Shown in pieces: positions 10,853-63,549 of a DNA stretch of 64,000 nt; position 1 is the first letter of the stretch, and the number at the start of each line of letters is the position of its first letter. A program made the translations under genes and the position numbers. This DNA comes from an uncultured Pseudomonadales bacterium. GTDB lineage: Bacteria; Pseudomonadota; Gammaproteobacteria; Pseudomonadales; Porticoccaceae. The notes under the pieces are model-generated. The model was given only the letters and a program-made list of their open reading frames with translations. It made no database searches and was not told the DNA's origin. The DNA lies in NCBI GenBank assembly GCA_943788875.1, contig CALSSA010000001.1:1-64000 (forward strand). Reading direction: 5' to 3'.

Positions 10853-12778
10853 TTAGTCGATGGGTCGCACGGATTTTTCATCCAACGTGCCATCAAATAG
10901 CTGTTTAAATTTGATTACCGATGGATCAGTGTTGATAGCCTGTACGGCCTCGGCCAGACGTTCGGTTTTCTCACGGAGATCTGCCGCTCGCGGTGTCTCT
11001 TGTTCAACGATACCAAAGTTGATCTCTACGGTGAGAGGCTGAGCAAAATATTCACTGAGCGCCTCGGCCAGACTCTGCTGATGGGCCGCATCATAGAGGC
11101 TGGTTTCACCGCTATCGATAAGAAAGTTAAGCTGACTGCCCTGCCGATCTTGATAGAGGCAATGGCTGGCGATCTCTCCTAGGGAGGCGCCTATGCTGAG
11201 TTGCTTGCGGATATCAATCCAGTTGTGGGGGGTAAAATCCTGTAACAATACTTTGCTGGCCGGTGGTTGCTCTTTATTTAGAGACGTTGAGGGTTCTTCA
11301 TTAGCTGAGGGCTCTTCATTCACGGGCGCTGAGGGCTCTTCATTAGCTGAGGGCTCTTCATTCACGGGCGCTGAGGGCTCTTCATTAGCTGAGGGCTCTT
11401 CATTAAAGGCAGCTGAGGGCCCATTACTAAAGGCAGCCGAAGACTTGTTATTAAAGGCAGCTGAAGGCTCTTCATGAACGGCACTCAAGGGATCCATCGC
11501 ACTAGCGCCAGTATTCTGCACTGCGGCTAATGTCGCTGGGGTTGTTACGGGAGCTATCGAGGAAAATGATACAGCTGGTGCAGATTCGGCCGCTACCGGG
11601 CCATCTCCATCAACTGCAGCTTCAGACTTTTTTATTTGTGGCTCCCCCTCCTGAGGGGTGCCTGCCTCTGCACTCTGGCGCTGGGGCGGGTTGGCATCGG
11701 GGCGAAATGCCAATGCTCGCAACAGTACCATTTCAAAGCCGGACTTGAGATCCGCGGCCAGATGCAGGTCTTTGCGACCCAGCAGACAGATCTGATAGAA
11801 CAGCTGCACATCTTCTTTACTGGTCACCGCTGCCAGATCCAGCAACTCGGAATAATGGGCCACACCTTTATCCAGTGCCTCGGGCACTGTCTGCAAAATC
11901 GCTACCTGATGCCAGACAGACAGCAGATCGGATAGAGCAGAATCATAATCCGGTGCCTGCTCAGCCATTCGGGCAATAGCAGCCAATACATCAGCCCCTG
12001 TGCCACTGGCCAGCGCCATACAGATATCCACCACATAGCTGCGCTCGATGGTGCCGAGCATAGCACTAACTTCAGTTTCATTAATCTGCCCACCGCCATG
12101 ACCTATGGCCTGATCGGTAAGGCTTAGTGCATCACGCATACTGCCATCGGCAGCCCGTGCCAATGACCAGAGCGCGGCCTCCTCAAAAGGCACCTGCTCT
12201 TCCCCCAACACGAACTGCAGATGCTGAGTAATGCGCTCGGCGCTGAGGTTTTTCAAATTAAATTGCAGACAGCGCGACAACACCGTGATCGGCAACTTCT
12301 GCGGATCAGTGGTGGCAAACAAAAACTTTACGTGGGCCGGTGGTTCTTCAAGGGTTTTTAGCAATGCCGCAAAGCTGGATTTTGACAGCATATGCACTTC
12401 ATCGATCAGATAGATCTTAAAGCGGCCTCTAGAAGGTGCGTACTGCACATTATCCAGCAGGTCACGCATATCATCGACACCGGTGCGGGACGCGGCATCC
12501 ACTTCAATCAGATCAATAAACCGGCCTTCGCTAATTTCATTACAGCTGGCACAGGTACCACAGGGCACCGAGCTGATGCCCTGTTCGCAGTTCAGGCACT
12601 TCGATAGAATACGACCGATGGTGGTTTTGCCCACACCCCGGGTGCCAGTAAACAGATAGGCATGGTGCAACCGGTCATTATCCAGAGCATTGATCAATGC
12701 CTGCAACACATGCTCCTGTCCCGCCATTTCGGCAAAGGAACGGGGTCGCCATTTACGGGCTAGGACCTGATAACTCAT
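10853..12778 (-). CDS. dnaX: DNA polymerase III subunits tau and gamma (DnaX)
   Basis: The full frame (tau) has 641 residues, close to E. coli tau (643). The AAA+ clamp-loader part carries Walker A GTRGVGKT (45-52), a four-cysteine zinc site (C64, C73, C76, C79) and a LIDEVHML Walker B. The start [12 protein letters not shown] is chosen over an ATG 30 bp upstream. Residues roughly 430-500 are a low-complexity linker with tandem NEEPSA-type repeats encoded by 42-bp DNA repeats. The C-terminal domain V, which binds the polymerase alpha subunit, follows. A programmed -1 frameshift site near 11627-11633 should also yield the shorter gamma form (see separate entry). First gene of the dnaX-ybaB-recR-rnd group. 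Confidence 0.95.
11289..11420 (-). repeat. 42-bp tandem repeats in the dnaX linker
   Basis: About three copies of a 42-bp unit, each made of two related halves of 18 and 24 bp, encode repeats of the peptide [14 protein letters not shown] in the linker between the clamp-loader core and the C-terminal domain of DnaX. Copies 11289-11330 and 11331-11372 are nearly identical; the next is diverged after its first half. Copy number is likely variable between strains. Confidence 0.85.
11622..11652 (-). promoter_or_regulatory. dnaX: Programmed -1 ribosomal frameshift signal producing the gamma subunit
   Basis: On the coding (minus) strand the slippery heptamer A-AAA-AAG occupies 11633-11627 and is in the zero frame as AAA AAG. 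Slipping back one base gives AAA AAA GTC TGA, so translation ends at 11622 after a single new residue, exactly the layout known in E. coli dnaX. An AGGAGGGGGAG stretch, a Shine-Dalgarno-like stimulator, ends about 8-13 nt upstream (11652-11642). Downstream, TGCAG and CTGCA segments can pair around an inner GGCC/GGCC, a plausible stem-loop. Predicted gamma: 384 shared residues plus valine. Confidence 0.85.
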
Positions 12779-42751: not shown

Positions 42752-42828
42752 GCACTCGTAGCTCAGCTGGATAGAGTACCCGGCTACGAACCGGGCGGTC
42801 GAAGGTTCGAATCCTTCCGAGTGCGCCA
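42752..42828 (+). tRNA. tRNA-Arg(ACG)
   Basis: The 77-nt cloverleaf has acceptor arms GCACTCG / CGAGTGC, a D arm GCTC / GAGT, an anticodon arm CCCGG-CTACGAA-CCGGG with anticodon ACG, a T arm GAAGG-TTCGAAT-CCTTC and an encoded CCA. A34 would be edited to inosine by TadA to read CGU, CGC and CGA. Confidence 0.97.
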
Positions 42829-43469
42829 CATATAAAAAGCCCGCCTTCTAGGCGGGTTTTTTGTATGTGCTGTACGACGAGGTGAGAACCTTCCGTTCGA
42901 CTAGTTATCCCCACGGGATAACTTGGACCAAGCCGCCACGCGGCGATGCTTCGTAGAAGTTTAAACAGGCCATGACCTGTTTAAAGTCAATCCTTCCGAG
43001 TGCGCCACATATAAAAAGCCCGCCTTCTAGGCGGGTTTTTTGTATGTGCTGTACGACGAGGTGAGAACCTTCCGTTCGACTAGTTATCCCCACGGGATAA
43101 CTTGGACCAAGCCGCCACGCGGCGATGCTTCGTAGAAGTTTAAACAGGCCATGACCTGTTTAAAGTCAATCCTTCCGAGTGCCCACATATAAAAAGCCCG
43201 CCTTCTAGGCGGGTTTTTTTATGTGCTGTACGACGAGGTGAGAACCTTCCGTTCGACTAGTTATCCCCACGGGATAACTTGGACCAAGCCGCCACGCGGC
43301 GATGCTTCGTAGAAGTTTAAACAGGCCATGACCTGTTTAAAGTCAATCCTTCCGAGTGCCCACATATAAAAAGCCCGCCTTCTAGGCGGGTTTTTTTATG
43401 TGCTGTACGACGAGGTGAGAACCTTCCGTTCGACTAGTTATCCCCACGGGATAACTTGGACCAAGCCGC
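42810..43469 (+). repeat. Tandem array of 3.7 tRNA-Arg 3'-end repeats
   Basis: Units lie at 42810-42988 (179 bp), 42989-43167 (179), 43168-43344 (177) and 43345-43469 (partial, 125). Each begins with the last 19 nt of tRNA-Arg (AATCCTTCCGAGTGCGCCA), followed by the intrinsic terminator and about 125 bp of structured DNA. In unit 1 these are hairpins AGGT-GAGA-ACCT (42880-42891, a GNRA loop), GTTATCCC-CAC-GGGATAAC (42904-42922), GCCGC-CAC-GCGGC (42932-42944), CTTC-GTA-GAAG (42949-42959) and TTTAAACAGG-N6-CCTGTTTAAA (42960-42985). Units 1 and 2 are identical apart from the tRNA flank; units 3 and 4 share a lost G in the tRNA relic and a one-base change after the T-run. The layout matches the E. 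coli tyrT repeats. Confidence 0.93.
42840..42862 (+). terminator. Intrinsic terminator after tRNA-Arg (first of four copies)
   Basis: CCCGCC-TTCTA-GGCGGG followed by six T's begins 11 nt after the tRNA CCA. The same hairpin recurs in every unit of the downstream array at 43019-43041, 43197-43220 and 43374-43397; the last two have seven T's. Confidence 0.93.
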
Positions 43470-43539
43470 AGCACAACGCTACCCCACAAGGGCATGAACA
43501 AACCAAAATCTATGCACAGCTCATCCCCCCAATCAGATT

Positions 43540-63141: not shown

Positions 63142-63472
63142 ATTGCACCCTCTTAATTTTTTCTTTTATACAAAGAAGCATAGTATAAATCTGACAGAGT
63201 GCGGGCGAAATAGTTTTGTTTATGGATATCAGTAATTTTGTGGGTTTTGCGGATTTGGTTATGGTAATGATTGCTCGGCGGTGGCCACAGCGGGCAGGAT
63301 TTGATAGTAATAGCCTTTGGGCTATTACTACCCCGGCGGGGCTGCGTCGCTTCGCGACTTGTCCAAATTCCGCCGTAGGCGTAATTTGTGAACCTGGCGC
63401 TTTACGCTCAAATCCGCCGTTCCGGCGGTTAAATAAAAAAGGCCACCTACAAGGTGGCCTTTTTTATTTAAT
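63142..63472 (-). ncRNA. Structured tRNA-Pro downstream region with tRNA 3'-end relic
   Basis: Reading from tRNA-Pro on the minus strand: an intrinsic terminator (63435-63466), then hairpins CCGCCG-GAA-CGGCGG (63414-63428), AAATT-ACGCC-TAC-GGCGG-AATTT (63365-63387), GTCGC-GAA-GCGAC (63346-63358), CCCC-GCC-GGGG (63331-63341) and an 11-bp stem TAGTAATAGCC/GGCTATTACTA with a CAAA loop (63305-63330). Immediately after the last is TCAAATCCTGCC, a copy of 12 nt from the T-arm of tRNA-Pro, 190 bp from the original, ending in a CCA at 63283-63285. No ORF is seen. Role is inferred (see findings). Confidence 0.5.
63435..63466 (-). terminator. Intrinsic terminator of tRNA-Pro
   Basis: AAAAAAGGCCACC-TTGT-GGTGGCCTTTTTT hairpin, 7 nt after the tRNA 3' end on the minus strand. 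Confidence 0.9.
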
Positions 63473-63549
63473 TGGTCGGGACGGCAGGATTTGAACCTGC
63501 GACCACTACACCCCCAGTGTAGTGCGCTACCAGGCTGCGCTACGCCCCG
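63473..63549 (-). tRNA. tRNA-Pro(GGG)
   Basis: A 77-nt cloverleaf on the minus strand with acceptor arms CGGGGCG / CGTCCCG, anticodon loop CTGGGGG with anticodon GGG, T arm GCAGG-TTCAAAT-CCTGC and encoded CCA. It follows the MerR-type gene, the normal place for tRNA-Pro after ihfA in many gammaproteobacteria. Confidence 0.96.

Follow-up and report, generated by a model that had tools for sequence, protein, structure and literature searches.

Organization of the array 3′ of tRNA-Arg(ACG)

The DNA analysed here, hereafter the window, is a 64,000-nt stretch of one contig from a SAR92-like organism (Porticoccaceae), whose order we take to be Pseudomonadales and whose class we take to be Gammaproteobacteria, following SAR92 taxonomy. 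On its forward strand a tRNA-Arg(ACG) gene is called at 42752..42828, with an Lrp-like gene upstream, and a tandem array at 42810-43469 starts from the 3′ end of this gene (consensus period 177, 99% matches in a tandem-repeat analysis). The array is built of four units on the same strand, of 179 bp (42810..42988), 179 bp (42989..43167), 177 bp (43168..43344) and 125 bp (43345..43469), lengths that agree with those in the initial annotation of this locus. The opening 19 nt of unit 1 are the tRNA 3′ end itself. Unit 2 is identical to unit 1, unit 3 carries two single-G deletions relative to unit 1 (one in the tRNA tail, one in the terminator), and unit 4 matches the opening 125 nt of unit 3 exactly, ends inside core hairpin H3 and lacks H4, H5 and a closing tail. 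The exact 19-nt copy of the tRNA end said to head every unit is present in units 1 and 2; units 3 and 4 open with 18 nt, one G fewer. The identity of units 1 and 2, and of unit 4 with the start of unit 3, points to recent growth of the array, and the single-G deletions common to units 3 and 4 suggest that this growth took more than one duplication step. Array length varies among genomes.

Each unit contains an intrinsic-terminator-like hairpin (42829..42869 in unit 1; copies at 43008-43048, 43186-43225 and 43363-43402), followed by an inverted T-arm copy with a GAGA loop, GGTGAGAACC (42878..42895; copies at 43057-43074, 43234-43251 and 43411-43428), and by the left half of a split T-loop, GTTCGA (42895..42900; copies at 43074-43079, 43251-43256 and 43428-43433). 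The core hairpins come next: H2 (42903..42923; copies at 43082-43102, 43259-43279 and 43436-43456), H3 (42932..42944; copies at 43111-43123 and 43288-43300), H4 (42948..42960; copies at 43127-43139 and 43304-43316) and H5 with its 10-bp stem (42960..42985; copies at 43139-43164 and 43316-43341). Element 1 closes with the right half of the T-loop, the acceptor strand and CCA, together a 19-nt copy of the tRNA 3′ end (42989..43007; 19/19 identical to the upstream tRNA), and elements 2 and 3 close with 18-nt versions with one deletion (43168-43185 and 43345-43362); element 4 has no tail. By covariance models, element 1 spans 42881..42993 and the others 43060-43172, 43237-43349 and 43414-43526. 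The terminator and five hairpins once ascribed to every unit, including the GAGA loop and the 10-bp stem, are there except that unit 4 breaks off within H3 and is without H4 and H5. The segment 42829-43007 has a folding energy of -72.6 kcal/mol (z -6.8 relative to 200 shuffles, with the terminator included and contributing).

A single element lies on the reverse strand of the window at 63297..63414, 3′ of a tRNA-Pro(GGG) called at 63473..63549 on that strand; its T-loop is split after GGTTCA and its tail copy begins AAATCCTGCC (63293-63302). The whole window genome (2.48 Mb, 14 contigs) holds nine element matches at four places, all 3′ of a tRNA: tRNA-Arg(ACG), tRNA-Pro(GGG), tRNA-Ser(TGA) and tRNA-Asp(GTC). 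Elsewhere in the window, 11288-11483 is a tandem repeat with units around TGAGGGCTCTTCATTAGC and periods of 18, 24 and 42.

A hairpin core within a split T-loop

By eye, the loci follow a common plan: a tRNA, often a terminator-like hairpin, an inverted tRNA 3′ end, a split T-loop with the core inside it, and a tail. The tRNA 3′ end is present a second time as a partial copy whose T-loop encloses the core, H2-H5; the inverted copy comes before this core and the tRNA's own last 18-19 nt after it. The inverted segment is a degenerate copy of the tRNA 3′ end through the T-arm, mostly with GGTGAGAACC or a near variant, and some inverted copies start with TGG, the complement of CCA. The left half of the T-loop reads GGTTCGA, or GGTTCA behind tRNA-Pro(GGG), tRNA-Leu(CAG) and tRNA-Leu(TAA), whose own loops read TTCAA. 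Within the core the order is H2, a TTTGGAC-like linker, H3, H4 (CCC-loop-GGG) and H5, with the core ending in ATC or GTC; the right half of the T-loop, AATCC or a variant, then leads into the acceptor strand of the element's own tRNA and reaches CCA in some loci.

Departures from a single core per T-loop occur. Two or more cores lie end to end in one T-loop at L171, L177 and L179, and core-to-core concatemers carry an ATCA/CTAA junction. In genome G018 an intact tRNA-Val is preceded by three tRNA-Val copies, each with the core inside its T-loop. A hairpin module some 50 nt long (starting CAGATTTTTGCTCCTGCAAAATCTGCATACATGCCATCC) recurs inside H3 at L174 and L175 (Leu-TAA) and at L160 (Pro-GGG); its presence in elements at different tRNAs suggests module exchange. 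A palindromic repeat, GATCCTTCGRCTTCRCTCAGGATGACA, follows soon after several elements (L036, L170 and L178; partly visible at L049 and L052). GNA-type loops are linked to DNA hairpin stability, and GNA triloops make up 37/106 in SAR92 and 84/155 elsewhere.

Distribution across genus, order, class and phylum

Three covariance models gave the following tallies, each of which counts the window genome. R1, trained on nine elements, matched 27/50 genus genomes at E ≤ 0.01. R2, trained on 106 matches all from the genus, matched 97/293 order genomes at E ≤ 1e-4 (42/118 genera). R3, trained on 119 matches, matched 99/369 class genomes at E ≤ 1e-4 (77/272 genera) and, across the phylum, 50/398 genomes at E ≤ 1e-5 (29/213 genera). 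Candidates scored per genome numbered at most 76 for the genus, 12 for the order, 10 for the class and 9 for the phylum, which makes the tallies lower bounds, and the E-values of all three models are rough owing to a short calibration. When R3 was run as a control over 546,764 bases (the window plus 50 loci), its matches were the five elements of the window and three others, none above 14.8 bits (E 0.54-4.1). The initial annotation had taken an absence of similar units from any related genome, together with RNA-seq showing no transcript past the first terminator, as favouring a neutral duplication; the model searches found such units in genus, order and class. R1 gave no match in 23/50 genus genomes, and the element therefore looks dispensable; strict filters and incomplete assemblies also produce misses.

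A tRNA lies upstream in 61 of the 69 genus matches listed (of 106), and in 104/119 of the wider alignment, where 15 tRNA types are represented. In three single-contig genomes from three genera, 18/23 matches have a same-strand tRNA no more than 600 nt away on their 5′ side. The tRNA neighbourhood beyond the genus was checked on best-scoring loci: a same-strand tRNA is upstream in 22/27 order loci (two of the five tRNA-free loci begin at contig ends), and within 800 nt upstream in 27/29 class loci and 13/18 phylum loci. Elements or fragments also occur about 7, 1.8 and 37 kb from tRNA-Arg(ACG), respectively in G022 (L040, C1:2148787), G021 (L043, C47:27958) and G018 (L039, C4:201600).

Relation to tRNA-linked repeats of E. 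coli

The repeats of this kind in E. coli already have a name. According to the available part of PMC8144298, E. coli K-12 has 22 tRNA-linked repeats (TLRs) spread over 10 loci, with one to five per locus, and they carry an exact 18-19-bp copy of the upstream gene's 3′ end; earlier work cited there includes Egan and Landy 1978, Rudd 1999, and Bosl and Kersten 1991/1994. The same part of that source reports that the 5S-linked TLRs RrA, RrB and RrF give processed transcripts which bind both Hfq and CsrA, that RrB occurs in 31 or more species from 12 genera, all of them in the Enterobacteriales, that 19 E. coli tRNA-linked members have a program score < 0.01 for the CsrB/C family, and that in 2021 the tRNA-linked forms were still without known function (PMC8144298). 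It also states that the amino-acid-starvation claim for TLRs was later retracted (PMC8144298, available part), so that the link to stringent-response modulation made in the initial annotation is outdated. The window array shares with these TLRs (as described in that part of PMC8144298) the position 3′ of stable-RNA genes, the one to five copies per locus (four here, the last truncated) and the 18-19-bp copy of the gene end.

The resemblance to the rtT repeats that had been pointed out is borne out and goes deeper than stated. The rtT/RttR units of the tyrT operon are spaced 178 bp apart and likewise have an inverted T-arm, GGTTCGA, a hairpin cluster and ATCC...CCA, but their hairpin sequences differ and, by eye, there is no intrinsic terminator between tyrV and the first unit. 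By eye, too, the split T-loop and inverted arm are the same at tyrT/V and lysQ, and rrnB carries a 5S version between terminators. In the 2-kb tyrT/V locus the four units rank at the top for R2, a model trained on the SAR92 genus (22.4, 15.9, 14.5 and 13.8 bits, E 5.7e-5 to 0.0066; next match 7.9 bits). R3, run unfiltered and containing no E. coli row, matched rrnB, the four tyrT/V units and lysQ, that is 6/11 of the units seen by eye, and gave no match at lysT, lysW, lysY, lysZ or argQ. Among nine E. coli loci tried, rrnB scored highest with R3 (28.2 bits), and a stretch at L273 that is not recognised as a TLR reached 18.8 bits, above four of the six matched units. The E. coli model evidence is by itself moderate, and it is the plan together with the tail that identifies the window array as a TLR. 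The independent origin entertained earlier finds no support.

Other known systems overlap in part. RrA, RrB and RrF show the same order of gene, terminator, element and terminator (in rrn operons, between T1 and T2), but they have a 5S tail in place of a tRNA tail and reported CsrA binding (PMC8144298, available part), whereas the window units have no GGA loops. A terminator-like hairpin between gene and repeat is also present in E. coli, at lysQ and rrnB. REP/BIME sequences are short palindromic DNA repeats adjoining genes; the window element differs from them in being bounded by T-loop halves and tRNA tails and in having no tie to Y1 transposase presence. Rfam presumably includes an RtT RNA family; a search of the window found no RtT family among 3 gathering matches or 91 matches at E ≤ 10, and at the relaxed threshold, apart from tRNA, the matches were all sub-gathering.

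Judged by its sequence, the window array is a member of the known, neglected TLR class, outside the taxa in which we found it described. The TLR account in the available part of PMC8144298 covers E. coli and, for RrB, Enterobacteriales, whereas the window array belongs to another family, involves other tRNAs and shows no GGA-loop enrichment in SAR92. Of the wider, undescribed class proposed in the initial annotation, the breadth holds and the novelty does not, the name tRNA-linked repeats being already in use (PMC8144298, available part). As far as our searches of the open-access literature reach, the breadth of TLRs, their split-T-loop anatomy and their tracking of the tRNA are new. TLRs, first reported from E. 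coli in 1978, appear to be common as a structured element beside the tRNA genes of the class, and the split T-loop provides a clear definition and a search model for them.

Elements track their own tRNA

We compared the two tRNA-derived parts of each element with all tRNA types in 61 first units, taking a single one for each combination of genome and tRNA and representing 15 tRNA types (tRNA labels, here and in the nearest-neighbour comparison below, are ARAGORN calls on the locus stretch). The tail copy fits its own tRNA above the mean of every other type in 38/61 first units, and the inverted segment does so in 34/61 (each reached in 0/2000 permutations). At Arg-ACG loci, by eye, the inverted T-stem follows the T-stem of the tRNA (CCTTC, CCTCC or CCACC) in 11/14 loci with an element; such following is absent at L077 and L078 and not clear at L079. 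The permutation test replaced an ungapped inverted-repeat test that reached shuffle P < 0.05 in 8/34 loci, an uneven result owing to indels; at least 8 of its 34 loci had no visible element. On sequence grounds, the tracking could reflect either selection or continued local copying, and it makes the mode of unit copying directly testable.

For 61 SAR92 cores, the nearest neighbour is at the same tRNA in another genome in 36 cases, at another tRNA of the same genome in 4, and at another tRNA elsewhere in 21, a split that likely reflects inheritance with some exchange. Near-alike cores do occur at different tRNAs, as at tRNA-Ser(TGA) in G070 and tRNA-Arg(TCG) in G002 (0.87).

Stem substitutions and GGA loops

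Across nine Arg-ACG elements, 14/32 pairs are altered on both sides with pairing kept, compared with a shuffle mean of 6.2, and 14 such pairs were reached in 0/500 shuffles. With 105 distinct rows, 29/32 pairs show two-sided change, in an alignment fitted to the structure model. The initial annotation had read the constancy of the hairpins across copies as either duplication or selection; identity within the array fits recent duplication, and the compensatory change lies between species.

Selection on a sense-strand RNA should favour G-U over A-C pairs, and a core with no such sign favours maintenance as a DNA palindrome. For the counts that follow, as for those of GGA loops, cores were cut by pattern or by model from recovered loci and relatedness was left uncorrected. 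In 104 cores we counted 12 G-U, 24 A-C and 2268 Watson-Crick pairs (G-U 14 and A-C 16 under the strictest of three settings). In contrast, 61 neighbouring spacers with terminators gave G-U 28 and A-C 1, and the stems of 39 tRNAs gave G-U 13 and A-C 0; the P value for the G-U/A-C contrast, 7e-8, is too small since the sequences are related. A second core set (n = 44, including at least 2 mis-cut spacers) gave G-U 9 and A-C 5, with no distinct trend either way. On the model alignment, helices H2-H5 hold 48 G-U, 48 A-C and 150 other mismatches, and the last figure means that part of the G-U/A-C signal is alignment noise. Helix H1 on that alignment has 29 G-U and 3 A-C, a pattern as for RNA, and keeps a GNRA-type loop. 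The lack of a G-U excess in the 104 cores, as against the neighbouring terminators, suggests that the core hairpins may be maintained at the DNA level.

CsrA binds A(N)GGA motifs in hairpin loops. In other orders of the class, GGA is in the loop of 57/167 core hairpins where 18.6 would be expected (300 shuffles gave at most 27; relatedness uncorrected), 42 core hairpins have it in an A(N)GGA context, and TCC is in 0/167, which makes the signal strand-specific. The phylum draw gave GGA in 17/78 loops against 5.3 expected. SAR92 has GGA in 5/252 loops (7.3 expected), TCC in 13 and the A(N)GGA context in 0/252, and the other genera of the order have GGA in 2/171 loops (7.2 expected). A missing csrA is ruled out as the reason for the GGA-poor SAR92 loops, since csrA is present in 42/50 genus genomes. 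We predict that the CsrA link may extend beyond the 5S members of E. coli, although the tRNA-linked members there have the low CsrB/C score given above; with GGA loops found outside the order, whether tRNA transcription feeds CsrA becomes directly testable. As a separate observation on gene order, csrA precedes tRNA-Ser(GCT) and its TLR by a few hundred bases in G016 (C6:118947) and G017 (csrA at C1:1107738), and in E. coli (L274) csrA adjoins serV-argVYZQ, with a TLR-like stretch also behind argQ.

Maintenance and origin of the element

We consider it probable, if modestly so, that at this TLR locus a palindromic repeat is tolerated behind stable-RNA genes, with copying and correction both taking place at the DNA level. 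The element would be an old palindromic DNA repeat without coding capacity, and it would be tolerated since the tRNA stays intact and, in the window, also since it lies beyond a terminator. Hairpins and tail copies would act as templates for strand switching and conversion during DNA-level copying and correction, and array length would shift through recombination between long direct repeats. The SAR92 element would be expressed at most by read-through, and elsewhere some members may have been co-opted as small RNAs. Up to 1.5 kb 3′ of tRNAs, the loci examined gave no second T-arm copy free of an element (eight rows reached at least 21/27 letters, each a tail behind an element), and the insertion step is thus not visible. 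The GAGA-loop hairpins and the GGA loops of other orders argue for RNA roles and against a DNA-level reading.

In a rival reading, which is possible but doubtful, the units give a functional small RNA by read-through past the terminator; it would be cut at the tRNA-like tails and, coupled to tRNA transcription, would serve as a decoy for protein or RNA. In E. coli, RrA, B and F are processed transcripts that bind both Hfq and CsrA (PMC8144298, available part), the GGA excess in other orders is strand-specific (57/167 against 18.6), and H1 combines a GNRA-type loop with an excess of G-U over A-C; yet GGA is not enriched in SAR92 (5/252) or in other genera of the order (2/171) despite csrA in 42/50 genomes, the core stems have no G-U preference, and each window unit carries its own terminator-like hairpin. 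We think it unlikely that the element is actively mobile, with T-loops as its targets and a recombinase or tRNA-primed DNA synthesis as its means of movement, although related cores occupy the T-loops of many tRNAs with a left half that mostly matches the loop type (TTCGA or TTCA), cores form concatemers with the ATCA/CTAA junction and lie within tRNA-Val copies in G018, similar cores occur at different tRNAs (Ser-TGA in G070 and Arg-TCG in G002, 0.87), and some inverted copies start with the CCA complement TGG. Against mobility stand 36/61 cores that look vertically inherited, the lack of an empty site in the loci examined, and the lack of a linked enzyme among Y1_Tnp and RVT_1, the two families tested. 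Y1_Tnp (PF01797) is found in 8/50 genus genomes, 5 with and 3 without element matches, and RVT_1 in 2/50, 1 of them above the cut-off, with neither in the window genome; the Y1 transposase and reverse transcriptase were accordingly rejected as movers.

In a broader version, TLRs would form one class-wide, T-loop-splitting family spread by tRNA-primed copying and later turned into CsrA decoys outside the window's order, which we regard as distinctly unlikely. An inverted tail starting with TGG would then be the primer-binding site, the 18-19-nt tail a copy of the primer up to the T-loop, with a break that we assume to be at nucleotides 57-59, and elements would be copied into the T-loops of stable-RNA genes, with hairpins outside the order becoming growth-coupled CsrA decoys. 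It is highly improbable that neutral local slippage limited to the window genome accounts for the array: the identity of the first two units, and of unit 4 with the opening of unit 3, agrees with slippage, but relatives already contradict it, with the element found across genus, order and class and with compensatory change. Scarcely credible, finally, is an origin as attachment-site scars of genomic islands at tRNA genes. The gaps of about 7, 1.8 and 37 kb between tRNA-Arg(ACG) and element in G022, G021 and G018 look as if islands had entered, but inserted DNA between tRNA and element means that insertion did not create the element, and a common hairpin core at unrelated tRNAs would be unexpected.

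Whatever their origin, TLRs hold broken tRNA copies that gene finders can mis-annotate as tRNAs. At L181 (G018, C4:594860-595314), ARAGORN reports as tRNA-Val genes three copies whose T-loops are interrupted by the element.
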